A stretch of 64,000 nucleotides of DNA, from contig NZ_JAMQOP010000001.1 in assembly GCF_031624495.1 (NCBI RefSeq), forward strand, positions 620,001 to 684,000, read 5' to 3'. The translations under genes and the position numbers were made by a program. This DNA is from Halogeometricum sp. S1BR25-6 (GTDB lineage Archaea > Halobacteriota > Halobacteria > Halobacteriales > Haloferacaceae). Under the pieces are notes generated by a model. It had not been told where the DNA came from, searched no databases, and worked only from the letters and a program-made list of their open reading frames with translations. This document shows positions 7,389-30,332 of this stretch, one piece after another (position 1 is the stretch's first letter; every line of letters starts with the position of its first letter).

Positions 7389-7463
7389 GGGCCCTTAGCT
7401 CAGTCTGGTTAGAGCGCTCGGCTCATAACCGAGTGGTCGATGGTTCGAATCCGTCAGGGCCCA
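7389..7463 (+). tRNA. tRNA with CAT anticodon (Met, or Ile2)
   Basis: Complete 75-nt cloverleaf: acceptor GGGCCCT/AGGGCCC with discriminator A, anticodon stem CTCGG/CCGAG closing a CTCATAA loop, and T arm GATGG TTCGAAT CCGTC with one T-G wobble. It lacks initiator features. The body resembles agmatidine-type tRNA-Ile2 as much as elongator tRNA-Met, so identity is open between these. Its 3' part is the integration site of the island that follows. Confidence 0.93.
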
Positions 7464-7465: not shown

Positions 7466-7593
7466 GAAACGACGGAGGTTCTTCGAGAGCCTCTATCGAT
7501 ACTTCTGTGGCCTCCGCTCGGAACTCGTGAGACCGTCCTCAACAGCGTTCGGTACGTTCCTCAGTGCTCGTCGTCACCGCATGGAGACCAAAA

Positions 7594-8424
7594 ATGTACG
7601 AGCTCAAACGAGACGACGTATTAGACGATTACAGGCGGTTTCTCAAAGTCGAGCGCGGCCTGAGTGAGAAGACGATCCACCAGCATGCGACGATGCTGCA
7701 GGTGTTTCTCGACCGCTACGAGCAGATCCGTCCGCCGCAGGAACTCGCCAAGGAATTCCAAGAGCACCTGATGGACGAGGACTATTCGAACAGCCACGTC
7801 AACAACACGATGAAGGCGATTGATTACTACTACGAGTTCCACGGCCAGGAGTTCGACTTCAACCGCCTCAACCGCCCCAAGAAGCTGCCCGAGACGCTCA
7901 GCGAGAATCAGGTGAAGCGCATCTTGTACGCGTGCGACACCTACCGCGACTACGCCATCCTGAAGACGCTCACCTCGAGCGGCGTGCGCGCGTCGGAGCT
8001 GTGCGATCTGGATGTCGTCGACGCGGACCTGGACAACCGGACGCTTCTCATCCGTCAGGGGAAGTTCGACAAGGACGGCTTTGCGAAGATATCCGATACC
8101 TGCGCCGAGGCGATCGGGCAGTACCTCGAACGACGGAACGACGACGCCGACCCGCTGTTCCTTTCTCGAACGGGTGACCGCCTGACTCGGAACGGATTAC
8201 TCCAACTCGTCAAGCGACGGGCGGAGTCGGCGGACATCGAGCAGAACGTGACGGTCCACATGTTCCGTCACTACTTCGCGACGAAGATGATCGAGAACGG
8301 TGCGGACATCTCGATCGTAAAGGAGCTGCTGCGCCACGACGACATCGCCTCGACGATGAAGTACCTGCACATCAGCGGGGAGGCGCTGAGTACGCAGTAC
8401 GACCGGTACGTCGATGACGTCTGA
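7594..8424 (+). CDS. Tyrosine recombinase/integrase of the island
   Basis: This 276-residue XerC/D-like integrase should catalyse site-specific recombination between the tRNA att sites. The N-terminal SAM-like core-binding domain spans about residues 8-85 (YRRFLKVERGLSEKTIHQH, DYSNSHVNNTMKAIDYYYEF). The catalytic domain has Arg in SSGVRASEL, HMFRH, LLRHDDIASTM and the nucleophile Tyr in MKYLH. A GTG 30 bases upstream is in frame, but the ATG at 7594 fits family starts better. Its place beside attL matches its predicted job. Confidence 0.93.
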   Translation: MYELKRDDVLDDYRRFLKVERGLSEKTIHQHATMLQVFLDRYEQIRPPQELAKEFQEHLMDEDYSNSHVNNTMKAIDYYYEFHGQEFDFNRLNRPKKLPETLSENQVKRILYACDTYRDYAILKTLTSSGVRASELCDLDVVDADLDNRTLLIRQGKFDKDGFAKISDTCAEAIGQYLERRNDDADPLFLSRTGDRLTRNGLLQLVKRRAESADIEQNVTVHMFRHYFATKMIENGADISIVKELLRHDDIASTMKYLHISGEALSTQYDRYVDDV

Positions 8425-10767: not shown

Positions 10768-11130
10768 TCAGCCGTATGCAAGTGCACCGAAACTCGCTGT
10801 AAGAACCATTCCAAGTAAAAATGAAATCATTTGAATTCCGCTGAATACCCGAATAGGAGTTCCATAGATAGTTGGAGTCCTATCCATCTCTGATTCGGGT
10901 GAATCTCGTCCCAGAGCTCCTGTTAAAGCCATCATCGTAAGGATTCCTCCAAGTAGCGATATAAGAAACGAAGCCCACGCTAACCATAGGACCGCTTGCG
11001 TAATCCCATCAGCAGTTGAGATCACATCTGTAAGAAATGTAACAGTCAACGCAACTAGACCAGTGGACAACGTAATCAGCTGTTTAGTTGTAGTAAGAGC
11101 GAAGTTGAACGATTGTTCTCTACTACCCAT
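10768..11130 (-). CDS. Small membrane protein
   Basis: From the ATG at 11130 this encodes 120 residues with three likely membrane segments: LITLSTGLVALTVTFL, AVLWLAWASFLISLLGGIL and MISFLLGMVLTASFGALAYG. The short soluble loop between the second and third carries SPESEMDRTPTIYG. A longer in-frame start at 11184 would overlap the upstream gene and is less likely. It follows the 98-residue gene by 10 bases, so the two form a unit. No family recognised. Confidence 0.6.
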   Translation of the reverse strand: MGSREQSFNFALTTTKQLITLSTGLVALTVTFLTDVISTADGITQAVLWLAWASFLISLLGGILTMMALTGALGRDSPESEMDRTPTIYGTPIRVFSGIQMISFLLGMVLTASFGALAYG

Positions 11131-11140
11131 AGTTATCGTC

Positions 11141-11437
11141 TCAACAAATTGGCCATAGAGGGCAGAGATCCCGTGCTGCGGCAAATGAGGAATTATCTAA
11201 TGGAGTTTGACCATGACCGTAGGCTTCCATATCCATTCGTTCAACAAACTTAGCGATGTTCTCTTCTGCTTCCTGAATTCGCAACTCATCATTTTCAACC
11301 CCCTCTGACTCCATACGTTCCGCACCTTGACTAATCAGAGACCGCAATCGGTTCTCAGCGACTGGGCCGATTGGCCTTCCTACCTGATTGGCTGCCCGTT
11401 GCGCCGCCTCCCAAAGACGATCTTCTAGGTCACTCAT
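11141..11437 (-). CDS. Hypothetical small acidic protein
   Basis: A 98-residue, mostly helical, acidic protein (SDLEDRLWEAAQRAANQVG, ELRIQEAEENIAKFVERMDME) with a Cys-containing tail. A TATA-like CTATAAG lies 10-16 bases upstream of the ATG on the minus strand. It is the first gene of a two-gene unit with the membrane protein downstream. No family recognised. Confidence 0.5.
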   Translation of the reverse strand: MSDLEDRLWEAAQRAANQVGRPIGPVAENRLRSLISQGAERMESEGVENDELRIQEAEENIAKFVERMDMEAYGHGQTPLDNSSFAAARDLCPLWPIC

Positions 11438-12184
11438 TTTAAATGCTTATAGTTGACCTTTCTAATCTTAGGTTCTGGTTGCGGGTGAATACACAGCGGG
11501 CATTTCCAAATATCATGACCCTTGAATTGTACCTCCACCAAGCTGATGGAGAAATATCATGTTTGTCTATTCTCAAAACTAGAATATAAATGTTCTAGCT
11601 GGAATGCGTTCTTAGTAAATATCTGCTGAAGAGTCTCCGCAGGGTAGATTCTCAAGAGCCAGCTCTGTATCTATTCAAACTACAGAATTATAAAAAACAT
11701 TTCTAATAGCAAACATGAATACCTGCCTACGTCGAGGCAGACACTTGAGAGTTAACATAAATTACAGATATCCATGTAATTCTTTAAACTGTAAAATTTC
11801 GATAGCAGGCTCCTCGTCGTCGACTGAGGCCGTTTGCTTGGATATTGACTTTTTGGGCAGTGTGGGTCGAAGAGAGACTGGTATCCTCTGGCGCGTGTTT
11901 TAGGAGATAGTGCTTGTACCACGATTTGCGGTCAGTAAACTCTTAGTCGTAACATTCGAGTCTTCAAGCAACGATAACGGATAGATGGGGAGCCAGACGC
12001 TGGTTGTTTTTTGGTTCAGGTATGAACATTTCCATCGGGAAATAAATGCTGTCGCTCTTCGATTTACTATCCATTCCTGGAAATGCCAACCAGAATGATT
12101 GAATCTCTCGGAGTTAAGACGCATTCTCTGTAGATGGTCAATCATAAGACTTGAGGAACATATCTACCGTATAATAACGTACAG
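11438..12184. other. AT-rich gene-free stretch
   Basis: About 750 bases of AT-rich DNA with only short weak frames: 62 codons on + near 11715 and 81 codons on - near 11900. Neither has recognisable features. The right end carries TATAATAAC near 12170, a plausible promoter for the gene at 12185. Confidence 0.4.
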
Positions 12185-16766: not shown

Positions 16767-16961
16767 ATGACGTCAAAAACGTCAGAGGCCTTCGCCGGTC
16801 GGCTCCCCGCCGACGAAGCGGCCCTCCTGAAAGCAGCAATCGAAGAATCGGCCGAAACAGAGTCTGAGATCGTACGGCGCGCCCTGCGCTTCTACATCCG
16901 GAAAAACCCGGATTACCTCAAGGCACTCCGGTCCCCAGACTTTCTAGAGGGATGGTTCTGA
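16767..16961 (+). CDS. RHH regulator paired with the second integrase
   Basis: A 64-residue ribbon-helix-helix protein: SEAFAGRLPADEAALLKAAIEESAETESEIVRRALRFYI, then a short tail. The ATG at 16767 is preferred over one 39 bases upstream because the extra residues are basic and not RHH-like. Its stop overlaps the integrase start (TGATG), so the two are co-translated. It probably represses the integrase through the repeats just upstream. Confidence 0.75.
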   Translation: MTSKTSEAFAGRLPADEAALLKAAIEESAETESEIVRRALRFYIRKNPDYLKALRSPDFLEGWF

Positions 16962-17854
16962 TGAGTACTACTGATGCATCCCCTCCGATAGAGGACTCGA
17001 ACCCGATCGACGAGTACGAACTCACGGAGCGGTTAGACGAGTTCGCCAGTTACCTCCGCGTCCGCCAGTCTCTCTCGAAGAAGACGGTCGACCAGCATCG
17101 GTGCATGGCACGAGCCTTCCTGAGAGAAATCCGGCTGCTTGACCCGGAGCCCTCCGACGCGTGGGCACACAAAGAGCAGATGATGGACGAGGGGTACTCG
17201 AACAGCCACATCAACAACACGATGAAAGCGGTCGAGTACTACTTCGACTACCTGGGCCGAGGCGACGAACTCGCCACGTCCGAACGTCGAAACCTTCCCC
17301 GCAAGCGCACGGAACCGAATCCGTTGACTGCGGACGAAGTGCGCGAAATCCTCGCTGCTGCGAGGACGTACCGAGACACAGCAATCTTCCGAGTGTTGGT
17401 CTCCTCCGGAATTCGGAAGTCGGAGCTCGCGAATCTCGACATCGACGACGTGGATCTCGAACGGCGACGACTGACGATACGGGAGGGTAAGGGGAACAAA
17501 GACCGAACCGCGATCATCTCCTCGGAGTGCGCCGATGCAATTAGCGCGTATCTCCTCCGTCGCGAAGATGCTGAGACCGGCGCTCTGTTCCTGTCACGCT
17601 ACGGAAACCGGTTGACGCCGAACGGCGTGTATCAACTGGTCAAACGGACGGTCGCCAGAACCGATATCGAGCGTAACGTGAAGGTGCACACTTTCCGCGC
17701 GACGTTTGCCCAGCGACTCAAGGAGAACGGAGCAGACATCTACCGGATCAAGGAACTCCTCGGTCACGATGATATCCGCTCGACGATGATCTACTTGCGG
17801 ATGGAGCCCGACGAGTTGGGGCGCGAGCACGACAAGTACTACATCGATTACTAA
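16961..17854 (+). CDS. Second tyrosine recombinase/integrase
   Basis: The 297-residue XerC/D-like recombinase is clearly homologous to the integrase at 7594 (shared YSNSHINNTMKAVEYYFDYL region). Catalytic residues are present: Arg in SSGIRKSEL, His and Arg in HTFRATF, His in LLGHDDIRSTM and Tyr in MIYLR. Two start codons lie 9 bases apart, and the second overlaps the RHH stop. It lies inside the island, not next to a tRNA, so it is likely the integrase of an older or nested element. Confidence 0.9.
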   Translation: MSTTDASPPIEDSNPIDEYELTERLDEFASYLRVRQSLSKKTVDQHRCMARAFLREIRLLDPEPSDAWAHKEQMMDEGYSNSHINNTMKAVEYYFDYLGRGDELATSERRNLPRKRTEPNPLTADEVREILAAARTYRDTAIFRVLVSSGIRKSELANLDIDDVDLERRRLTIREGKGNKDRTAIISSECADAISAYLLRREDAETGALFLSRYGNRLTPNGVYQLVKRTVARTDIERNVKVHTFRATFAQRLKENGADIYRIKELLGHDDIRSTMIYLRMEPDELGREHDKYYIDY

Positions 17855-19735: not shown

Positions 19736-20113
19736 ATGGAAGATTCAGCAAATGACTCCTCCGAATCACTATCGTTGGTAGAAATTGATTCTCACCGCAA
19801 TTCGGAGGAACGAGCTCGTAATGGGAAATCCGGTGATATTACGTACCTCTTGAGGTATCACCGGAAAAACGACGTTAAAGCAATAAGAGGAAAAGCTGTT
19901 GAAATTGGGGAATTGACGAACTGTAACCACATCGATTTAGAACCCCTGTCTAACCAGGGATACAGTCATTATGGGATTTTTCGTGTTGAAGACAGATCTA
20001 CCACAACACTCGTTCAAGACACAGATAATTCCGTATTTAAGATATTTTCGTTCAGCCGAAACGATGTGAAAGTCTCTCATCCGGTTACTATCTCTATAGA
20101 GGCGAACGAGTAG
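19736..20113 (+). CDS. Hypothetical protein at the 3' edge of the defence operon
   Basis: The 125-residue AT-rich protein is not recognised. An acidic N-terminus is followed by a strand-rich body: SGDITYLLRYHRKNDVKAIR, HIDLEPLSNQGYSHYGIFRV and DNSVFKIFSFSRNDVKVSHP. It is convergent with the QueF-like gene across an 80-base gap. Gene context gives no clear role. Confidence 0.5.
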   Translation: MEDSANDSSESLSLVEIDSHRNSEERARNGKSGDITYLLRYHRKNDVKAIRGKAVEIGELTNCNHIDLEPLSNQGYSHYGIFRVEDRSTTTLVQDTDNSVFKIFSFSRNDVKVSHPVTISIEANE

Positions 20114-20192: not shown

Positions 20193-20576
20193 TCATCCCC
20201 TGTATAGTGAACGCTCCCCGAATTCTACTGTTTCTTCCAAGCCTCCTCGTCGAGCTTGTTCGAGCCGAAGGTACATCTTGGCAGGTTCAGCAGTTTGCTG
20301 AAAAGCGGCGAACATTTCTGCCCCCAACTCTTCGGCCGTGATTTCCGTGTCACGGTACGATTCTAAAAATTGCTTCAGACTTCGGCTTTCCAGGCAGTGT
20401 TTGTCCGGAACATACCGGAGCTCAAACTGATAATAGTCCGGTCCCCCAAAATCAAACGGACATTGTGCCGTGAGTTCGGATGTTTCGAAGGTATACACCT
20501 GACTGGTATTTGAATCTGGAGCGTCAAATATTTCCAAGATCGTCTGTCGTTCCGTTGGTGAAGACTGAGTTGACAT
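20193..20576 (-). CDS. QueF/QueF-L-like 7-deazaguanine-modifying enzyme
   Basis: The 127-residue T-fold protein looks like QueF (preQ0 to preQ1 nitrile reductase) or archaeal QueF-L (amidinotransferase making archaeosine from preQ0 in tRNA). The thioimide-forming Cys is Cys39 in QCPFDFGGPDYY with the general-acid Asp at 47. The substrate Glu motif is YVPDKHCLESRSLKQFLESY. Length fits unimodular QueF. An ATG 39 codons into a longer frame is used because the upstream residues are not family-like. It is the last gene of the PglZ/DpdA-like operon, 38 bases after the GNAT gene. Substrate in DNA rather than tRNA is inference from context; a host archaeosine-synthesis copy cannot be excluded. Confidence 0.85.
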   Translation of the reverse strand: MSTQSSPTERQTILEIFDAPDSNTSQVYTFETSELTAQCPFDFGGPDYYQFELRYVPDKHCLESRSLKQFLESYRDTEITAEELGAEMFAAFQQTAEPAKMYLRLEQARRGGLEETVEFGERSLYRG

Positions 20577-20614
20577 GAATAAGTCCAGTAAGAAGGTGGA
20601 TATAAAGACTGCTA

Positions 20615-21154
20615 TTAGTTGATCCGACGCTGCATTTGATACATTTCTCGACCGCCTTTTGTTTGGTACTGATCGACTTGATGGAATCCGCACGCTTTCC
20701 AGAACCCGACTGCTGATGCGTCAGCAGCAACGTCCGCAATCATTGTTGATTTCTCCCACACCTTTGCAAATTTGATAGCACTCTTCACAAGGTATCGACC
20801 GATACCGTATTCGCGATATGCTGGATGAACTGCGACTAGTCGGATTTGTGCTTGGTGATCCTCCAGAACCCGTGATTCGCACCACACCATTAGCCCCCCG
20901 AGAATTTCATCGAACGGTCGATAATAGTACAACTTCCGATCGTTTCGTACTGCGGCTCTTTCCAGCGTATCACGGTGTGTGAACCAGTGTAGCTCTGATT
21001 TGATCTGCGGCGAATTGAAGAAATCGTTCAGTTGTCCCAGCCTATCTGATTCTTTGTCTACTGTCTTAACAAGAAAATCAGATAGTGTAGGATGTCGATC
21101 CTCCTCATTTGGGGATGATGACTTAGTAGGTGGCTGTTGATCTACCAGAGTCAT
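20615..21154 (-). CDS. GNAT-family N-acetyltransferase
   Basis: The 179-residue protein has the acetyl-CoA site IRLVAVHPAYREYGIGRYLV, including the R-x-x-G-x-G turn, and the C-terminal GNAT strand-helix ASAVGFWKACGFHQV. The N-terminal 60 residues are acidic and variable. It overlaps the HerA-like gene by ATGA and belongs to the operon. It might acylate a base (as in momylation-like chemistry), a protein of the system or a metabolite; the sequence does not say. Acetylation of an aminomethyl-deazaguanine (preQ1) is one testable idea. Confidence 0.8.
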   Translation of the reverse strand: MTLVDQQPPTKSSSPNEEDRHPTLSDFLVKTVDKESDRLGQLNDFFNSPQIKSELHWFTHRDTLERAAVRNDRKLYYYRPFDEILGGLMVWCESRVLEDHQAQIRLVAVHPAYREYGIGRYLVKSAIKFAKVWEKSTMIADVAADASAVGFWKACGFHQVDQYQTKGGREMYQMQRRIN

Positions 21155-22314
21155 GCTTCGCCACCTCCATGTTTGCTCTTCCGGGGTCGCATCTTTACCA
21201 TTTCAACCGTCTCCTCATCGTCATCCACATAAACAGCTTCACCAACGTTGTCGATCTGTCTGACGTAGGTTTTCAGGTTGTTCCCCATGTAGTCTTGGCT
21301 GAGTTTGTCAAGTGATTGAATATCTTCTTTAGTAGTGATCTTATGACAGAGGATAATGTCACACTGGGACAACACGTTGCTATCTATCGCTGACGGTTGC
21401 TGTGTTGCAACTACGATGGACAAACCGGGCTGCCGCCCCTCTTTCACCCACCGGATAATGGTGTCTTTGGCAAGTGATGATGACCCACTCGGAACAAAGT
21501 TGTGAGCTTCATCGATAAATAACCAAACTTTCGGGATCTCTACCGATAGGCCCATCTCTTCACGGCGACGGGCTTCCTGACGTTGCCGGAATAATTCTTT
21601 TCCGAGCACTTCAACGACGAGGTTCCGGAGCCCGTACCGGCCTGGATCGATGACGCTCATATCCAGTACGTTGATCCTGTCCTCATCGAAGGTGCGCCAC
21701 AGATCCTGGTAGTGGTCAGCAAAGATTCCCCAATCATTGGCCATTTCCAGCCGATTCAAAAGAGCTTCCTTAGTTCGGTCTGATGAGCCTCCGTCGCGTT
21801 CGATTTTCTGGATAATATCTTCCAGATAAAACTCTGCATCTTCTTCGCTCAACTCTCGAACAGAGCGATAGAGAGCAATTCCCATTGGCTTGTTGATGTT
21901 TAGGTCGAAGAGGTCACACCATCCATCTGGTGTCATATCCGACGGATTGAGGAGTAGCGGGTTCACGTCGATGCCACGACTCTCAAGCTCCTGCAGGACT
22001 TCGTCACCGAATCTTTCTTCGGGAGTACCTGGAACAAGTAGGTTTACCGGGAATCCTTGTTCGGACATTCCCCAATCCCATATGAGATCACGTTGCCGGT
22101 CGTTTTCCTCGGTCATCGTCCAATAGATTCCCATGGGATCGATAACGAGCGGAACTATATCGTCGGTCTCTGTGTGGATTTCCTCGATAATGTTCCCCAT
22201 TGTGTAACTCTTCCCAGTACCTCGTTTACCGCATGCAAGGATGGAACGAGCCGACGATGCGTCGATATACATTTCGTTACCGTCGTCGAGACTTTCACCA
22301 ATGAACAAATTCAC
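21151..22314 (-). CDS. HerA/VirD4-like DNA-pumping ATPase
   Basis: The 387 residues hold Walker A CGKRGTGKSYTMGNI (Lys35), Walker B VWLFIDEAHNF (Asp268-Glu269) and the sensor-like VVATQQPSAIDSNVLSQCDI typical of HerA/FtsK helicases. The terminal part has ITTKEDIQSLDKLSQDYMG. It lacks the N-terminal HAS barrel of full-length HerA. Hexameric DNA translocases of this group serve end resection and several defence systems. It overlaps both neighbours by 4 bases. No NurA nuclease gene is adjacent, so it may translocate or discriminate DNA rather than resect. Confidence 0.88.
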   Translation of the reverse strand: MNLFIGESLDDGNEMYIDASSARSILACGKRGTGKSYTMGNIIEEIHTETDDIVPLVIDPMGIYWTMTEENDRQRDLIWDWGMSEQGFPVNLLVPGTPEERFGDEVLQELESRGIDVNPLLLNPSDMTPDGWCDLFDLNINKPMGIALYRSVRELSEEDAEFYLEDIIQKIERDGGSSDRTKEALLNRLEMANDWGIFADHYQDLWRTFDEDRINVLDMSVIDPGRYGLRNLVVEVLGKELFRQRQEARRREEMGLSVEIPKVWLFIDEAHNFVPSGSSSLAKDTIIRWVKEGRQPGLSIVVATQQPSAIDSNVLSQCDIILCHKITTKEDIQSLDKLSQDYMGNNLKTYVRQIDNVGEAVYVDDDEETVEMVKMRPRKSKHGGGEA

Positions 22315-23432
22315 TTTGAATCACCATCTTTGTGTTTGCTAGCAAGTTCGATGAGTGGTACGACGGACTCATAGTACGAAAATCCGCCGTGAACGCCCCA
22401 CTCGGTATGTTTGAAATCGCGGGCGAGATAGGGGTATGCAAGCCCAGACACGATTTCTCCCTCTGAATCCGTGAGCGTCATACTGTGTGGAACTTTTTCA
22501 CGACCAGTCACATATCTGGGCTGATGCTTATAGTCATCTATGACTACGTTTGGTCTGTCCGGTAGTTGTGTCCGCCAAAGGATACCATGATCTGATGTTG
22601 CGAATATCTTGTAGCTTCTCTCTTGCTTAGACAGCTCCGATTCAAGCTTCCGAATGTCTTCAACGATATTCTCTATGACGGCTTCCTGATTGGGTGCCTC
22701 TTTTTTGTTGTGAGATTCTTGGTCGAGACCCATCCGCGTGATTTGGATGTACGTGCGGTTGGTGAGTGGGGAATTGTTTGAGAGATATTCAATAGCCTCA
22801 GAGAAATCTCGGATACGGCGGATGTCGTTGCCCATCGAGGCATGGAGATCTGTTGAGAGCTCTTCTTGTCCTCGAGCCCAGTATGTGAATCCGAGTTTAT
22901 TAGCGAAATTTTTCTTGTGAAGAAGTTCGCTGTATAACGAGACATTGTCATTTCCATAGATGATACGCTTGAAACCTGGCTCCGTCGTTGTGATCCCGTC
23001 TACAATTACCGGTTGTACAGGGAGATTCGTCGTGCGAATTGATTCGTAGGAGAGCCCATCAACGATAAGAAGCACGACGACGGTTTCGCCGATCACGTTG
23101 CGGAGAATGTAGTCTTTAAGACCAGACTGGGGCAGTAGTTCTCGTCGAAGCCGGTCATGATGTTCTCGGTCACTCCAATCAACGACCTCATTCAGTTGTG
23201 GTGAAACAGGCTCTTCATCACAACTCAGACGCACATAGTCTGGATGATGTTCGTCTGTATCGATCACTACGTCCTCTTCAAAGCGGTAATCAGGGTCGTA
23301 TAGATCGTGATGAAAGTTATCAAGTGAAGTATAGACGGCAAGGTCGTCAAGGTAAAAACTCGCAAGCTTCGGTAACGAACAGACCACTGGACTGACTTTT
23401 GCGTGCTCAGCGATTTCAGTGAATGTAGGCAT
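22311..23432 (-). CDS. pglZ: PglZ-domain protein (alkaline phosphatase superfamily)
   Basis: The 373-residue protein has the PglZ metal-site layout: VVVLLIVDGLSYESI (Asp125), GLDQESHNKKE (Asp237, His241), FATSDHGILW (Asp281, His282) and WGVHGGFSYYESVVPLIEL (His348). PglZ is the signature protein of BREX and Pgl phage-exclusion systems. This one is short and lacks the long N-terminal region of BREX type 1 PglZ. It follows the giant ATPase by two bases and overlaps the HerA-like gene. Its biochemical role is not settled even in characterised systems; a phosphatase or nuclease-like metal enzyme is likely. Confidence 0.88.
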   Translation of the reverse strand: MPTFTEIAEHAKVSPVVCSLPKLASFYLDDLAVYTSLDNFHHDLYDPDYRFEEDVVIDTDEHHPDYVRLSCDEEPVSPQLNEVVDWSDREHHDRLRRELLPQSGLKDYILRNVIGETVVVLLIVDGLSYESIRTTNLPVQPVIVDGITTTEPGFKRIIYGNDNVSLYSELLHKKNFANKLGFTYWARGQEELSTDLHASMGNDIRRIRDFSEAIEYLSNNSPLTNRTYIQITRMGLDQESHNKKEAPNQEAVIENIVEDIRKLESELSKQERSYKIFATSDHGILWRTQLPDRPNVVIDDYKHQPRYVTGREKVPHSMTLTDSEGEIVSGLAYPYLARDFKHTEWGVHGGFSYYESVVPLIELASKHKDGDSK

Positions 23433-23434
23433 GG

Positions 23435-26400
23435 TTACCTCCCGCGTCTGCGGGCGATCTGGATATCTATTTGGTTATGCTTGAACAGCTGATCCATCCG
23501 GCTGAGCAGTTCGTCTGGTGAGAGATCTTCTCCATCTTCGTGGTACTCCATGAGAAGTTCCTTGAAATCCACCTGTCGGTGGTCATTGATTCGTTCTAGC
23601 AACTCCTGGACTGCTTTATTATCAGGTTCGGACTCACGACGGAATTCACCTGAAGCCTCTCGAAGCTCTTGGGCGCTTTCCAGCACCGTCTGTCCTTCAT
23701 TGCCTAACTCGGAACAGAGCTCGCTATCATTTTGAATGTCTGTGAATGTAAACCGAGACAGTTTTGATTCTAAACTAGAGACCTTTGCTTCGGTGTGCTC
23801 GATTCGTTCACCAACTTCATTCGGGTCTGCATCCGCCCCGGAATCAACACCAACAATACGGGCGTACTCGATCTCTTGGAATGCCTTCGTCAGCATTTCG
23901 CTGGCCTTCTCGATGACCTGTGAGCGGTACTCCTCCTCAAAGTCTTCTACAAGACCGCGACGCGCTTCATCAGGGTTCTCGATGAATGGATATTGAGCCC
24001 GTCTGAGACCGCGAGAGGAACCACCGGTCGCTTCATCGAGAATACTTTTCAGGATCTCTAGTTTCTTCTGGAAGACCTCCCGCCGATTCGCACGTCGGGC
24101 TTCGTACGATTCTTCGATTCGGTCGAGTTGTTCTTCGAACCCCTCTCGGTTCTGAAGGGCTGCCTCCCAGTCATTTGTGAAGTGCTCAGAGACTTGTCCG
24201 ATGAAGTTCTCGATCTGTTCTGCTTCATCTACATCTTCCTCGAACGTTCGAGCGTAGTCCATGATCTTCCGTCGAACGTTCGCCACTTGGTCAGCGAAGA
24301 TTCCCCATCGTTCAACGGCATCTGCGAGGTCTTCGAGGCTTTTTCCATCATCGCTTTCGGAAACTTCTTTTCGAATCTCATCCAGTTCAGCGCGGGCATC
24401 CGTCGATTTTTGGTAAAGTTGCTTCGTGTTCCCTATTGTCGGCTCATCGTACTGAGCAACCGCTGTTTCTAGGTCGTCACTTATCTCTCCAATTCGCTGC
24501 TTGATATCTTGATATTCTGCACGGAGTTCTCGTCGAGCGTCATCTAGTACGCCAACGAACTCTACACTCCCTTCAATCGGATCGTCAAGATGGTCTGGAT
24601 TGATCCGACGGCGTTCCCGGTTAGCTTCTTTCTCGACGTCCTGACATTCAGAGAGATACCGCTGGTGAAGCGATTCGACTTGCTGAGCGAGTCGTTCCCG
24701 TACGTGACGAGCACTGACTTGCAACGACTCCAGCTTTTCTCCATCGTCAGGATGTGCCTCCTCTAAGTCTCCCTCGACAGCGTCTAACTCCTCTGTTACC
24801 CCTTCCGGCATGAAGTCCGCGTCAAGTGAGATAACCGCATCATGGAGTTTCTTACACTCTCTGAATGTAGTCTGCACATCACCAATACTGACATCCGTTT
24901 CAAGAAGTGTGAGTGCCGCATCTGAATCAGCTTTTTCGACGAGTCCTCGCTGCTGGAGGAACTGCAGGATAACGTCAACTTCCTCCTCACGGTATCCGTA
25001 TTTGGTTGCGAACTTATCGATTTCCTGTATCGAGATTTGTTCGCCGTTACTTTTCTCTAGCCTATTCAGAATTTCTTCTTCAAGTGGGTGAAGGTCAGCA
25101 CGAACGATGAAATTATCCGAATCACTGTCCTCAACGGTGAGGATGTCACTGTAGTGTTGACTAATCCGACCGTCGAAAGGTGAGGTGTTTTTCAGGCCAA
25201 ACAGTGCTGCAATGTCCTTTTTCGTACCCTCAACTGTATTCGATCCCCGGCGTTTGGAGGTAGTTTCGAGCGCACTGAGGAAGTCTAAGTAGTCGTCCAT
25301 CATCGTCTCGTACTGCGTGCTGGTGATGATGGTGTGGTACTCGGGATAGATCTCTTGCATCGCTTCTGTGAACACCCCCTCGACTGCTCGTTTCCCTGCT
25401 CGTTGTAATTCGAATGGAGCGTTGTCGATGAGCTCTTCATCGAACAGAGACTTCAGCGCTACGCTGAGGAGTTTGTCACTAAAGTGTTCGACAAGGTTCT
25501 CCTCTTGCGCGTCCATTTCCGTATCGTCCTGCTCTAGATACGCTACGAGCGCAAGCATCAAGAACGGAGTGACCGCATTCGGATCCATCGCATCCCGCAG
25601 GAAATCGAGGGTCTCGGGCAGAGAGTCGAATGTCTTCCGACCGTTAACTATGAACGTGTATTCTCTCTCAGATTCCCGTTCAATACGCGGTGTGACTGGA
25701 TTTTCCTCACTCTCCCACCCCATAACGAAGTTAAACGCGATATCGGGGGTTCCGTATCCTTTGCCTAGGTCGTCGTGGTTTCCGATCTCCTCTTCGTGGG
25801 CTGGATCGGTGGCGGTAAGGCTGGCGATCCGCTTGGGATAGCGCGTATTGAAAGTTCCCCGTAAGTCACTACGCTTGTACAGTGTCGGCTCGTAGTTGTT
25901 GAGTCCGTCTCCGACTCCCCATCCTCGGAGCTTCCCACGAATGGGTTCAAAGATTTCGCCGCAGACGAGATCATTAGCGAACGCCTCCATCGCATAGGTG
26001 GCGTTGACGTGCTCGGTGTCGTACTGCCGCCAGAAGTCACGGATAAGTTGCTGAACGATGTCATCCGGGCCCTCTCTGGCAGTAACGTCAATCAGCGTGT
26101 ATCCTTCTGCAACGACTTTGATGACCTCACCATGCAGGGCTTTGGAGAGATCTTCTCTTGCCTCTCTGAGGCCCCAGGATTCGACGACTGAGTCCGGAAT
26201 CCCTTCCTCAGGGAATACTGCACAGATGCGAATAAATTGCGATTTCTTTTCTGAGTCAACGATAGAATGATCGAGAGCATCCTGAATGGCTGACTGGATC
26301 TTTGTCGACGACCCTTGGTAGCGGACTTCGCCTTCATAGAAGGCATCGGCGAGGTCGAGAACCGTGAAACATTCTCCCGCAGTCTGGTACTGCTTGATTG

Positions 26401-27439
26401 CGATACGGAAAATATCGATAACAGTTCGCGGACCGTTGCTGAGATCTTCACGGGAACAGATTTCACCAATAGCCTTCAGTGCAGGCTGACTGATGACATC
26501 ATGTTGCCGGTCTGCGAATCGGTATTCTTGCGCATATCTATCCCAGAGTTCAGACGGGAAGTCCTTCCCATAAACATTCTTGAGATTAAGCGTCAGATTA
26601 TCGCGTTCCAGACGATTTAGCACGTCACCGGCATGAGCGTCGAGAGTACTCTTCGTTTGTTCGGGCATCGAGATGAACAGTCCGAACTCATCCTGCACCT
26701 TCGCACCCGCTTGCAGCCCGAACACGAGATTTCGGAATCGTGATTCGGCGTCTTGCCGGTTATCTGCGCTTTTGAAGTATTGCTGGAATTCGTCACCGAG
26801 GACAAGAAGCCCGTCAAAATCAGCCCTCAGGGCGAGGTCAGTACACTCACTGAAGAAGTCGATGAGGGTGTCCGCTTGGATACTGAGGTCTAGGTCGTTG
26901 TTACGCTCCATCTCGTGGAACATCTCCACGAGTTGGTCCTTGTCTTGGAATTGGTACTCATCTTTCTTCTTCTCAGCGTACGCTTCCAACTCTTGATTGA
27001 TGTATCGGTCCTTTATCTCCTCTAATTCATCGACGTACCCCGGGGCCTTGTTGCTTAGTTCGTATCGCATCCACCCATGGGTTGCACGCATGATCGCTGT
27101 GAACGAAGTGAGGGTGAACGGAGGAACAGCAATAACATCGTTATCAGTTATTTCCTTCCAGATACTGACTGATGTACTAGTTTTGCCGTAGCCAAATGGG
27201 CCGTACAGGTAGCCTTTCGTCGGTTTTTCGTTATTGACGAGTGACTCATAAACTCGATCCTCAAACCCATCTGTATCTCCGAGAGAGATATGAGTATCTG
27301 CGAATCGCTCGTATTCGGCTTCAACTGTTTGTGGTTCCTCTGCGACTTCGTTTGCGCTGAACGTTGAGATAATGCCCTCGCTCTTTCTAACGAGGTCAAA
27401 CACTTCGCCAACGCTGTCAGTGAGTTGTTTTCCGCTCAT
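23435..27439 (-). CDS. Giant BrxC/PglY-like P-loop ATPase
   Basis: The 1334-residue protein has an N-terminal AAA-like ATPase: Walker A YLYGPFGYGKTSTS (Lys86) and Walker B LLVLGDEFQQYF (Asp216-Glu217). A middle region carries winged-helix-like segments (about 790-850: EEEILNRLEKSNGEQISIQE). Residues about 870-1250 form long coiled coils (REVFQKKLEILKSILDEATG). This layout and size match the BrxC/PglY/DUF499-type ATPases that sit before PglZ in BREX, Pgl and related systems. It overlaps the small P-loop gene upstream (ATGA). It should be the core motor or platform of the system. Confidence 0.85.
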   Translation of the reverse strand: MSGKQLTDSVGEVFDLVRKSEGIISTFSANEVAEEPQTVEAEYERFADTHISLGDTDGFEDRVYESLVNNEKPTKGYLYGPFGYGKTSTSVSIWKEITDNDVIAVPPFTLTSFTAIMRATHGWMRYELSNKAPGYVDELEEIKDRYINQELEAYAEKKKDEYQFQDKDQLVEMFHEMERNNDLDLSIQADTLIDFFSECTDLALRADFDGLLVLGDEFQQYFKSADNRQDAESRFRNLVFGLQAGAKVQDEFGLFISMPEQTKSTLDAHAGDVLNRLERDNLTLNLKNVYGKDFPSELWDRYAQEYRFADRQHDVISQPALKAIGEICSREDLSNGPRTVIDIFRIAIKQYQTAGECFTVLDLADAFYEGEVRYQGSSTKIQSAIQDALDHSIVDSEKKSQFIRICAVFPEEGIPDSVVESWGLREAREDLSKALHGEVIKVVAEGYTLIDVTAREGPDDIVQQLIRDFWRQYDTEHVNATYAMEAFANDLVCGEIFEPIRGKLRGWGVGDGLNNYEPTLYKRSDLRGTFNTRYPKRIASLTATDPAHEEEIGNHDDLGKGYGTPDIAFNFVMGWESEENPVTPRIERESEREYTFIVNGRKTFDSLPETLDFLRDAMDPNAVTPFLMLALVAYLEQDDTEMDAQEENLVEHFSDKLLSVALKSLFDEELIDNAPFELQRAGKRAVEGVFTEAMQEIYPEYHTIITSTQYETMMDDYLDFLSALETTSKRRGSNTVEGTKKDIAALFGLKNTSPFDGRISQHYSDILTVEDSDSDNFIVRADLHPLEEEILNRLEKSNGEQISIQEIDKFATKYGYREEEVDVILQFLQQRGLVEKADSDAALTLLETDVSIGDVQTTFRECKKLHDAVISLDADFMPEGVTEELDAVEGDLEEAHPDDGEKLESLQVSARHVRERLAQQVESLHQRYLSECQDVEKEANRERRRINPDHLDDPIEGSVEFVGVLDDARRELRAEYQDIKQRIGEISDDLETAVAQYDEPTIGNTKQLYQKSTDARAELDEIRKEVSESDDGKSLEDLADAVERWGIFADQVANVRRKIMDYARTFEEDVDEAEQIENFIGQVSEHFTNDWEAALQNREGFEEQLDRIEESYEARRANRREVFQKKLEILKSILDEATGGSSRGLRRAQYPFIENPDEARRGLVEDFEEEYRSQVIEKASEMLTKAFQEIEYARIVGVDSGADADPNEVGERIEHTEAKVSSLESKLSRFTFTDIQNDSELCSELGNEGQTVLESAQELREASGEFRRESEPDNKAVQELLERINDHRQVDFKELLMEYHEDGEDLSPDELLSRMDQLFKHNQIDIQIARRRGR

Positions 27440-27912
27440 TGGTGTACCTGATTTGGTGCATGTTCGACTGGTAGTCCCAGCGACTCCCAGTTCGATTGTA
27501 CAGTTTCGTAGTGATTCTCTTCGGGGGCCAATTCGACTCTTGGGAAGACCTCTTCTGCCGGCTTCTGGGTCACGTAGACGGCTGTCGCAAGCCCGTTGAT
27601 GCTGGCATGCGTCCGTAACTTTCGTGTTGCCATACGGTCAGCATCTCCATGGTCATAGATGACTACTGGTTCGTCAGCTGTATCCGGCATTTGCGGATGA
27701 TACTCCCATCCTTCCGATCTCTGAAGTGTCCAACAGAGGAACGTTTTCCCGGCTTTCTTCGGGCCGTACAGGTTGATGAACCGAGCATCGTCTTCTCTGT
27801 ATTCTCGGATTTGGTCTACTGCTTCCCTCTGAATAGTCGAGAGTTTCTCAACTGATACAGCGTCTTTGAGGGCGTTCATTCGCTGGAGGAGTGGTGCATT
27901 AGGCGAGGTCAT
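27436..27912 (-). CDS. Small P-loop NTPase of the defence operon
   Basis: The 158-residue protein has Walker A LYGPKKAGKTFLCW near residue 50 and a possible Walker B EPVVIYDHGDAD near residue 85. Two helices precede the P-loop (LSTIQREAVDQIREYREDD). It is too short for a full AAA domain and may dock on the neighbouring giant ATPase. It overlaps genes on both sides by 4 and 14 bases, indicating tight translational coupling. No named family is recognised with confidence. Confidence 0.75.
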   Translation of the reverse strand: MTSPNAPLLQRMNALKDAVSVEKLSTIQREAVDQIREYREDDARFINLYGPKKAGKTFLCWTLQRSEGWEYHPQMPDTADEPVVIYDHGDADRMATRKLRTHASINGLATAVYVTQKPAEEVFPRVELAPEENHYETVQSNWESLGLPVEHAPNQVHQ

Positions 27913-28744
27913 TGAGATTCACTGGCTCTGATAGCCGGACGTGCATGGTGTAATCGGCCTTGAGACTCAGTCGACTATCCATTTTCACTGCCTGTTCGAC
28001 CACATCGGAGAGAGAGTCTTCCTGCACCAGACAGAGGGTCTGTAGTGCCTCGGCAGGAGCTCCACTCAAGCTCATCAATCCCCCGTAGTCCTGTGATCCA
28101 GCGAAGTCTGTTCGGTAGAGGAGATCAATCGAAGCCACTACCAACTCCGACGGGACAAATTCCCGCAACACAAATTGTCCCTCCTGGAGTACTGGTGGTT
28201 CTAACTCGTCGATAAACCTCCGATAATTGTTAATACTCTTCTTACTCAGCGTGCCGTAATTATCGAACCCAGTAGTAGCCTCGTTCTCGGCAGTTTGTAA
28301 CACAGCCTCTACGATTTCCTGCTTGGCGTCGTTGAAGTCGACAGGCGCCCTCTCACAGTATTCACGAGTGATTTGGTAGTAAGACCATGAGATTAACCGC
28401 TTAGGATCTGGATTCCGATAATACGCGGATGCGTACACAAAGTGTAGCAAGTCATAGAAACGCTGTTCGTTGTGGATGAGGACTTCCACAAGCTCCTGAC
28501 CGAATTCTGTAAGTGCCAGCCGGTTATCCTCCTGCACGAGTCCGAGTCGTGCTAATGTATTCGTCATATCTTTTGTGTTGATATGTTGACCTGCCTGGGT
28601 GGGGTGACTAAGCCCGAATTCGTGGTAGGCATCACTCATCACACTTTCAACAGTGTCGTAATCACGCCGATCAAGGAGGTCGAGGTAGCGCTTGATTGCC
28701 TCGGGTCGTCCTGCACTCCCGACAATGTGGAGTTTGTTGCTCAT
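27899..28744 (-). CDS. Winged-helix protein, DUF4007-like
   Basis: The 281-residue protein has an N-terminal winged helix (INTKDMTNTLARLGLVQEDN, LALTEFGQELVEVL), then a helical middle (YDLLHFVYASAYYRN, ISWSYYQITREYCERAP) and a second half starting GTLSKKSINNYRRFIDELEP. Order and spacing recall DUF4007 proteins, which accompany phosphorothioate Dnd systems and bridge marking and restriction modules. That resemblance is by eye. It overlaps the transglycosylase gene by ATGA and the small P-loop gene by 14 bases. It may read the modification state of DNA. Confidence 0.7.
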   Translation of the reverse strand: MSNKLHIVGSAGRPEAIKRYLDLLDRRDYDTVESVMSDAYHEFGLSHPTQAGQHINTKDMTNTLARLGLVQEDNRLALTEFGQELVEVLIHNEQRFYDLLHFVYASAYYRNPDPKRLISWSYYQITREYCERAPVDFNDAKQEIVEAVLQTAENEATTGFDNYGTLSKKSINNYRRFIDELEPPVLQEGQFVLREFVPSELVVASIDLLYRTDFAGSQDYGGLMSLSGAPAEALQTLCLVQEDSLSDVVEQAVKMDSRLSLKADYTMHVRLSEPVNLNDLA

Positions 28745-29859
28745 GTTAAGATTGACCTCCTAACTGGCTTGATCTCCTGAACGGATTCGAGTAGTTTCCG
28801 GTACTGTGAGTTGGAGTCCATTGCCTCGATTGTCTCTTCGGTGGTCATCCTCTCCATTTGATGCGTCATTTCGTAGATGACGAGCAGATTATGGATAATG
28901 CGGTCCCACCGATTGTTTCGGAGATCATTGATATCCTCACAGAATGGACACTGGTGATCGGTCTCTGCTCGAAGGTGGGGGAGTTCACTTCCGGTGAGGA
29001 CGTTCCCTCCGCGGTTCTTCCGGTGAGAGGCGTTGAACCGACTCTTGAAAGGAAAGAATACATTTCCGTATCCGCTTGATCGCATCCAACTCGTTGTGTC
29101 GAATGAGTCGACGCCCGCTTCATACAGGAGCGGGAGACTGGTTGGCCCACCAACGCCGAATGCGTGAACCGATAGTCCTTCTTCGTGCGCGCGGTCAACG
29201 ACCGTCGAGAGGTTTTGGAAGGTTTCTGTGGTGAGCATATTTACGCCGTTGCTCACTCCACTCGTTCCGAAGCTTCCGAAGCCAATGTGTTGGAGGCCAT
29301 CTAGCTGGCTGTACTTGTTGAGACATCGGTACAGCTGGTCTGTGGTGTGGCCCTGAACGACGGCGACAGCCTTAGATTGCCGATCTTCGGAGAGCCGGCG
29401 GAAGCACATCTCAGTCGCGCTCAGGGTTTCGTCAACCTTGCGGTTCACAACTTCGGGAGGGTCATCGGAGAGCGGCACATTATCAGGGAGAACGTATCGG
29501 TGTCCCCAACTGTTCTCTCCGTAGAAGTTAATTAAATATGAGTATAGGTCGTCGAATTCCTTGTTTCCGACCTGGACTTCGTACCCTCCAGAATCGAACA
29601 TCACGTTGAGATCGAACCTCTCAGTAAGTGCCTGGATCGATCGGTGTGCTCCCGGTCCATTTGAGATCGGGGTAAACATGATGTTTCGGAGCGGTTCTAA
29701 GGACCCATATCCATCCTGAAGCCGAGCGAACGTATTCCGCATCGAACTGGGGGAGACACTCATCGCAGCATAGAATGAGAGAGTCATTGCTCTGAATGGG
29801 TTTGAGTAAGCCCTGCGATTCTGGTGGGCTGGTTTTTGGAGATCTCCGATTCGTCCCAA
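28741..29859 (-). CDS. tRNA-guanine-transglycosylase-like protein (DpdA-like DNA deazaguanine transferase)
   Basis: The 372-residue TIM-barrel protein has TGT hallmarks: FDSGGYEVQ (Asp89, the general acid/base seen as DSGGFQ in TGT), AVVQGHTTDQLYR (substrate pocket), AFGVGGPTSL and GVDSFDTTSW (Asp254, nucleophile position). The zinc site appears altered: HQCPFC with His302, Cys304 and Cys307, then His323, instead of C-x-C-x2-C-x(n)-H. It lacks the PUA-type RNA-binding domains of archaeal TGT. Members with this divergence and a defence setting (DpdA) exchange guanine in DNA for preQ0. First gene of the operon. The TTG start is uncertain; an ATG at 29787 is the main alternative and suits the TATA box better. 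Confidence 0.85.
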   Translation of the reverse strand: MGRIGDLQKPAHQNRRAYSNPFRAMTLSFYAAMSVSPSSMRNTFARLQDGYGSLEPLRNIMFTPISNGPGAHRSIQALTERFDLNVMFDSGGYEVQVGNKEFDDLYSYLINFYGENSWGHRYVLPDNVPLSDDPPEVVNRKVDETLSATEMCFRRLSEDRQSKAVAVVQGHTTDQLYRCLNKYSQLDGLQHIGFGSFGTSGVSNGVNMLTTETFQNLSTVVDRAHEEGLSVHAFGVGGPTSLPLLYEAGVDSFDTTSWMRSSGYGNVFFPFKSRFNASHRKNRGGNVLTGSELPHLRAETDHQCPFCEDINDLRNNRWDRIIHNLLVIYEMTHQMERMTTEETIEAMDSNSQYRKLLESVQEIKPVRRSILT

Positions 29860-29866
29860 TAACCGT

Positions 29867-29875
29867 ATTTAATCA
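29867..29875 (-). promoter_or_regulatory. Candidate promoter of the defence operon
   Basis: On the minus strand GATTAAATAC is a good haloarchaeal TATA box. Transcription would start about 25 bases on, near 29845, downstream of the TTG at 29859. That favours translation of the first gene from the ATG at 29787. Confidence 0.4.
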
Positions 29876-30288
29876 TAGCGTCAGTATCAAATCCCCCACA
29901 CGCATCAGATTCAGAATATAATTGGTATGGATACATATCTTGTCTGTAGTTTCCCCTGGACCTTCATTTCGTCCGCTACTAATAAATGCTACCCTCGTTA
30001 TCGCTGTACCCTCCTTCGGTCTACAAGTGAAGCGTAGGGCGGCCTCGTAATTCAAACATACTGGTCTTTATCTCTAGATTTAATGTTGGTATAAGAACAA
30101 TATTCTCATCGCGACACTAGTCTCTGAAACTATCGACACCCGCCGAGTAGTCGTGAAATTCCCTCTTCGGCACCACAAGGCATCATACTTTGTTCAGCAA
30201 CTCATATAACTGAGGTCCTCGAAATCATCGGTATCGGTGGCTGTGAGCACCGGAAGGATGTCGCCGAACGTCTGTGTCGGGGACTGGC
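29876..30288. other. Gene-free right margin of the island
   Basis: AT-rich DNA between the operon promoter and attR. A 60-codon minus frame near 29873-30055 has no supporting features. No excisionase-like gene or small RNA is evident. Confidence 0.4.
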
Positions 30289-30332
30289 CTCATAACCGAG
30301 TGGTCGATGGTTCGAATCCGTCAGGGCCCATA
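30289..30332 (+). repeat. attR, right end of the island
   Basis: Perfect 44-base copy of the tRNA 3' part (see attL). It keeps the anticodon-loop half, T arm, acceptor 3' strand and two trailing bases, but no 5' half, so it is not a tRNA gene. Core-genome composition resumes about 200 bases to its right. Confidence 0.93.

Follow-up and report, generated by a model that had tools for sequence, protein, structure and literature searches.

A QueF-bearing BREX-Related Capture operon in Halogeometricum and its possible preQ1-type self-mark

The closest described relatives of the operon reported here are the BREX-Related Capture (BRC) systems (Rakesh & Krishnan, NAR, January 2026, PMC12839542), which share with it PglZ, a BrxC-like ATPase, a small P-loop protein (in BRC, a signal transduction ATPase with numerous domains, STAND), a DUF4007-like protein, HerA/FtsK, a GNAT, and a tRNA-guanine transglycosylase (TGT). 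The main text of that paper proposes deazaguanine self-marking in a subset of BRC systems, going at most as far as dPreQ0, the deoxynucleoside of preQ0 (PMC12839542). Its reduced counterpart, dPreQ1, is found at about 30% of G in the DNA of the haloarchaeal virus HVTV-1, and the order of reduction and insertion is unsettled even for viruses (PMC6884629). We analyzed a 64,000-nucleotide stretch of Halogeometricum sp. S1BR25-6 (contig NZ_JAMQOP010000001.1, positions 620,001 to 684,000; hereafter, the window), in which an eight-gene operon combines such components with QueF. An earlier note on this DNA, made from the letters alone, knew of no described system of this composition; BRC already has the seven components and the deazaguanine proposal, at least in the main text of its description, and the claim has to be withdrawn. 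With somewhat better than even confidence, we regard the operon as a BRC exclusion system using a 7-deazaguanine of the preQ1 type as self-mark in DNA.

Gene content and recurrence of the operon

All eight genes are intact and co-directional on the minus strand (20193–29859), in the order TGT-like, SspB/DUF4007-like winged helix, small P-loop protein, BrxC-like ATPase, PglZ, HerA, GNAT, and QueF, as the earlier note had read them. The nearly universal overlaps of 4–14 bp that it described hold at five junctions (winged helix/P-loop, 14 bp; TGT/winged helix, P-loop/ATPase, PglZ/HerA, and HerA/GNAT, 4 bp each) but not at ATPase/PglZ and GNAT/QueF, which are separated by gaps of 2 bp and, with the corrected QueF start, 38 bp. 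Judged by the relatives, QueF starts at 20576 instead of 20693. The TGT starts at 29787 instead of 29859, all relatives starting at the equivalent site, which shortens the 372-residue protein called earlier to 348 residues; the extra codons of the longer call overlap a QueF remnant described below.

The window proteins were searched against Pfam, PADLOC, and NCBIfam. The TGT belongs to its presumed superfamily (PF01702, 43.6 bits, cut-off 26.3), with the catalytic Asp65 and Asp230 and the H-x-C-x2-C...H site conserved. QueF (PF14489, 55.4 bits, cut-off 27.3), GNAT (44.6 bits, Pfam cut-off 23.6), and HerA (DUF87, 49.8 bits, cut-off 23.2; PADLOC HerA 1e-24, mad8 5e-24, DndH 1e-8) likewise match. 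PglZ stays below the Pfam cut-off (17.7 versus 25 bits) and matches PADLOC PglZ at 4e-8; an alignment shows the metal-site residues D125, D281, H282, and H348, and a fold search with a low-confidence model (predicted local distance difference test, pLDDT, 68) returned the nucleotide pyrophosphatase/phosphodiesterase (NPP)/alkaline-phosphatase family and the BREX PglZ 9zn5. On their own sequences, neither the winged helix nor the giant ATPase has a good family match. The winged helix does not match Pfam DUF4007, and we tie it to this family because the best PDB match of its AlphaFold2 model (pLDDT 87) is SspB (6juf, probability 1.00, E 2.8e-3). SspB is itself a DUF4007 protein, as stated in the main text of PMC12839542. 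In the ATPase family, the Walker A residues G85-K86-T87 and the Walker B residues D216-E217 are invariant, and six of 12 members match PF10923 (BrxC_BrxD, best 2e-6); there was no DUF6079 match as such, and the ATPase profile retrieved only coiled-coil noise from the PDB. The small protein has an intact GPKKAGKT Walker A motif at the place expected for the STAND NTPase, with weak AAA matches only.

The operon is not a chance assembly, since its gene set recurs in the same order in eight other Halobacteria genomes and on a Haloplanus plasmid. Within a class sample of 391 Halobacteria genomes, the giant ATPase occurs in nine, all of which have the seven genes from TGT to GNAT arranged as in the window, and a second Halogeometricum genome has its own, divergent copy. 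The genome contigs gave no match to the ATPase as the only query and were searched again with a TGT alignment. A fragmentary copy from an incomplete genome (G408, L069) was excluded, and no TGT was found in the G656 copy, whose contig begins inside the ATPase gene. Complete relatives carry the TGT, no methyltransferase or Dnd gene was found inside the operon, and the joining of a PglZ/BrxC-like exclusion module to 7-deazaguanine enzymes, suggested earlier from the window, is supported.

Beyond these haloarchaeal copies, archaeon G728 (L067), from another family of the phylum, has GNAT first and then TGT through HerA, and a further archaeal lineage (L068) has ATPase-PglZ-HerA-QueF-GNAT at a contig edge. 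The bacterial relatives, three Chloroflexota loci (L023, L120, and L121) and an Oscillatoria plasmid, have the TGT and GNAT together with the winged helix and the ATPase, but no PglZ or HerA nearby. One Chloroflexota stretch (L120:3450-14651, G947) holds two convergent winged-helix/BrxC-like ATPase pairs, one of them with GNAT-TGT, and in another (L023:3606-9947) a sigma-70-like factor and a NOV_C-domain SNF2 helicase lie ahead of the TGT operon.

QueF and the proposed supply of preQ1

Two types of QueF accompany the operon, and an intact QueF is found in all 10 haloarchaeal copies examined. QueF-a is present in the window, L015, L019, and Haloplanus. QueF-b lies directly upstream of the TGT in seven copies, with a 4-bp overlap in five. 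In the window QueF-b has decayed to a C-terminal tail in another frame than the TGT, the stop of which overlaps the TGT start codon (tblastn E 1.7e-7, with 49% identity to an intact relative across the final 37 residues), yet QueF-a is present at the other end of the operon. Across the class sample, QueF exceeds its cut-off in 12 genomes, namely 9/9 with the operon and 3/382 without it (Fisher p 4e-16, a test that ignores shared ancestry). This distribution makes chance cargo very unlikely as an explanation for QueF. In two of the three genomes without the operon, QueF sits beside replication-type genes of what appear by eye to be mobile elements. The physical linkage extends to preQ0 synthesis, as queC-queE-queD adjoin the operon in Haloplanus and L016.

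Against the curated cut-off of 86.9 bits for preQ1 synthase (TIGR03139), the QueF-b of L013 scores 148 bits, the QueF of L068 143.9, the QueF-a of L015 89.9, and the QueF-a of the window, just under it, 74.6. QueF-b keeps the Cys, the Asp, and the E-L-K-S-L-K cofactor motif. By sequence, these QueFs are mostly ordinary preQ1 synthases, and because of this, chemistry on the free base before insertion is likelier than the maturation of a mark already in DNA supposed in the earlier note. The reductase cofactor motif and the equivalog score reject QueF-b as an archaeosine synthase (QueF-L), an identity that QueF-a could still have.

Haloarchaea use preQ0 for archaeosine, and the host genome retains the canonical TgtA and a second TGT-family gene reading as ArcS; making preQ1 would thus require the acquisition of a QueF. 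The earlier view that no synthesis genes are needed is half right, since QueF, usually absent from haloarchaea, is required, and queCDE come along in two of the relatives.

The alternative that fares best is a mark of dPreQ0 only, as proposed in the main text of the BRC description, according to which canonical Dpd TGTs also use preQ0 (PMC12839542). QueF would then have a side function such as preQ0 removal or archaeosine-like amidination, and QueF-like proteins of Crenarchaeota do make archaeosine instead (PMC5485725). We consider it unlikely, since QueF is obligatory in the haloarchaeal copies and coupled to the TGT, since QueF-b has the residues and the score of a preQ1 synthase, and since halovirus and phage QueFs formerly named QueF-L gave dPreQ1 (PMC6884629). 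Apart from these operons, a contig with phage-like genes (L122:643-2782, G1051) has QueF near QueC, a possible case of viral preQ1 modification.

Not every operon with the TGT is accompanied by its own QueF. A queuosine-precursor transporter (TIGR00697 over the curated cut-off) follows the ATPase by 11 bp in L121, where the order is GNAT-TGT-winged helix-ATPase; a weak QueF match follows the ATPase in L120; and of the three bacterial genomes that have TGT-winged-helix loci, two encode QueF at another place. In the genome of G728, no QueF was found. There, HerA overlaps a 2-hydroxyglutaryl-CoA-dehydratase D-like gene, followed by a BcrAD-type activase (L067:16031-17727). The best plasmid relative of the dehydratase-like protein is from Ilyobacter (L082:7974-12128), where the dehydratase-like and activase genes are followed by queD, queE, folE, and queC. 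Among 120 genomes of the order of G728, close homologues of this protein occur in 47 of the 49 with QueA versus four of the 71 without (p 5e-26, uncorrected for ancestry), QueF exceeds its cut-off in just one of the 49, and the dehydratase-like gene neighbors queA in several genomes. This double-cubane-type reductase pair might stand in for QueF as a preQ1 synthase, probably an oxygen-sensitive one and a candidate for the missing preQ1 synthase of anaerobes, and as such it would fill the place of QueF in the G728 operon. Our literature searches turned up no mention of the pair in this role, which is not proof of novelty. Dehydratase-like and activase genes also stand beside queA-tgt in archaea without QueF (L106:5549-9808).

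Proposed mechanism and alternatives

In the preQ1-type reading that we favor, the archaeosine pathway of the host would supply preQ0, QueF would reduce it to preQ1 as a free base, and the DpdA/TGT-like enzyme would swap guanine for preQ1 in DNA, and the amine of preQ1 may be acylated by the GNAT. The SspB/DUF4007-like protein, the P-loop protein, the BrxC-like ATPase, and HerA would engage DNA without the mark, and PglZ, likely a nuclease, would cut it. What the sequences show is the genes, their order and conservation, the catalytic residues, and a statistical and physical linkage to preQ1/preQ0 genes, from which we infer a DNA substrate, a preQ1 base, the part played by the GNAT, and defense itself.

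More tentatively, and with clearly less weight, the self-mark could be N-acyl-preQ1 in DNA, produced by a QueF-TGT-GNAT line with preQ1 from any source: the own QueF in haloarchaea, a host QueF or transporter in bacteria, and the candidate dehydratase-like reductase pair in the QueF-less archaeon. GNAT and TGT form one fused protein on the plasmid of the cyanobacterium Oscillatoria. On a viral-labeled contig (L027:3195-5130), a SAVED-domain gene, a GNAT, and a TGT overlap, with the GNAT before the TGT and no exclusion genes in the stretch read.

Several points weigh against a preQ1-type self-marking system. No experiment demonstrates a modified base or defense for any BRC system. The TGT is far from characterized DpdA (24 bits versus a cut-off of 200 for NF041059), its position among long branches of the tree is unsure, and no DpdB or DpdC homologue was found among the operon genes with Pfam, PADLOC, and NCBIfam. 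The QueF-a of the window, besides its score below the preQ1-synthase cut-off, lacks the usual active-site His. In L019, two metal ligands of PglZ (10914-12023) are gone, with G in place of D281 and S in place of H348, while the other operon genes are intact, and PglZ may therefore not be a nuclease in every copy.

The TGT superfamily is mostly tRNA-acting, and GNATs acting on tRNA are known, so the TGT might modify host or viral tRNA, giving immunity to, or triggering, an RNA-level defense. This is improbable given that in the tree the operon TGT does not join the pair of tRNA TGTs (support 90/87, with long branches) and that its viral and phage relatives are mostly on its own side of this split; moreover, Pfam found no PUA domain in its 348 residues, and its companions HerA, BrxC-like ATPase, SspB-like protein, and PglZ are of DNA type. 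The TGT had no match in phage records, so that a phage origin of the gene is not shown.

Equally improbable is an operon without self-marking, in which TGT, QueF, and GNAT act on invading DNA or counter dPreQ1 haloviruses, for instance by base exchange. Such haloviruses exist, and HVTV-1 encodes QueF and no DpdA (PMC6884629), but QueF and queCDE would add the same base instead of removing it, and the logic of BREX and Dpd favors a self-mark. Least probable of all is that the GNAT, perhaps with the TGT, is a separate toxin-antitoxin-like or regulatory unit carried with the exclusion genes: GNAT toxins are common and the position of the gene varies between copies, but in unrelated lineages it is fused to, or sits right next to, TGT or QueF, and no complete archaeal copy examined lacks it.

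If the preQ1-type self-mark is real, BREX-type exclusion can use a modified guanine as self-signal, a third mark beside methyl and phosphorothioate groups, and the newly named BRC class gains a precise chemical prediction. It would also account for the association of the operon with QueF, a gene that haloarchaea otherwise hardly ever have, and, more speculatively, suggest mimicry of a self-mark as a reason for dPreQ1 in some haloviruses.

Genomic setting and comparison with known systems

The operon most likely travels as cargo on an integrative island, about 22.9 kb long, in a tRNA-Met gene (7389-30330). An exact 42-bp direct repeat of the 3' half of this gene bounds the island at both ends, and the operon lies in a low-G+C stretch between the repeats (Table 1). 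The 125-residue protein encoded next to QueF-a is a possible accessory; its homologues stand beside five other haloarchaeal copies (42% identity, E 2e-28, tblastn), and the orientation of the gene varies among the six.

Table 1. Features of the island and the operon in window coordinates (attL and attR, left and right attachment sites; aa, amino acids)
Feature	Coordinates	Strand	Basis or remark
attL, 3' half of tRNA-Met (7389-7463)	7422..7463	+	identical copy at 30289-30330
Tyrosine-recombinase-like integrase beside attL	7564..8424	+	by eye from translation
Second tyrosine integrase inside island	16952..17854	+	PF00589, 136 bits
Small accessory gene, 125 aa, no family assigned, convergent with QueF-a	19736..20113	+	tblastn
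QueF-a, preQ1 synthase-like, 127 aa (corrected start)	20193..20576	-	PF14489
GNAT acyltransferase	20615..21154	-	PF13673/PF00583 over cut-off
HerA-like DNA translocase ATPase	21151..22314	-	DUF87; PADLOC HerA, mad8, DndH
Short PglZ	22311..23432	-	PADLOC PglZ; alignment; fold search
BrxC-like AAA+ ATPase, 1334 aa	23435..27439	-	PF10923 in family members
Small P-loop protein, at position of BRC STAND NTPase	27436..27912	-	Walker A; weak AAA matches
Winged-helix protein, SspB/DUF4007-like fold	27899..28744	-	AlphaFold2 model; PDB match
DpdA/TGT-like transglycosylase, 348 aa (corrected start)	28741..29787	-	PF01702
QueF-b remnant (TGT-coupled QueF of relatives)	29787..29897	-	tblastn
attR, right-hand tRNA-Met repeat	30289..30330	+	direct repeat

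As in Dpd systems, a TGT paralogue inserting 7-deazaguanine would be paired with restriction-type genes; the operon differs in having no DpdB or DpdC, in its BREX-like exclusion genes, and in QueF, which yields an amine where DpdC of Dpd yields an amide. Type-4 BREX and the SSP/Dnd-Pbe systems also join an SspB/DUF4007-like protein and a BrxC-like ATPase to a modification other than methylation, but no phosphoadenosine phosphosulfate (PAPS) reductase or cysteine desulfurase is among the operon genes, and the proposed mark is a base and not backbone sulfur. With BREX types 1-3 the operon shares the PglZ and BrxC-like core; its PglZ is short, and no PglX/BrxX methyltransferase is among its genes. 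Lacking methyltransferase and sulfur genes, it is no strict member of BREX or Pbe/Dnd, to which the earlier note had likened it. The dPreQ1 in haloarchaeal virus DNA and the viral QueF of HVTV-1 are a chemical parallel (Hutinet 2019, PMC6884629), although there they serve viral self-protection, and the virus has neither a DpdA nor an exclusion module (PMC6884629). The system itself is thus a known one, BRC, from which the haloarchaeal copies described here differ in their constant QueF. The main text of PMC12839542 has no QueF, preQ1, or queuosine term, and against this main text the QueF/preQ1 variant and the evidence for it appear to be new.

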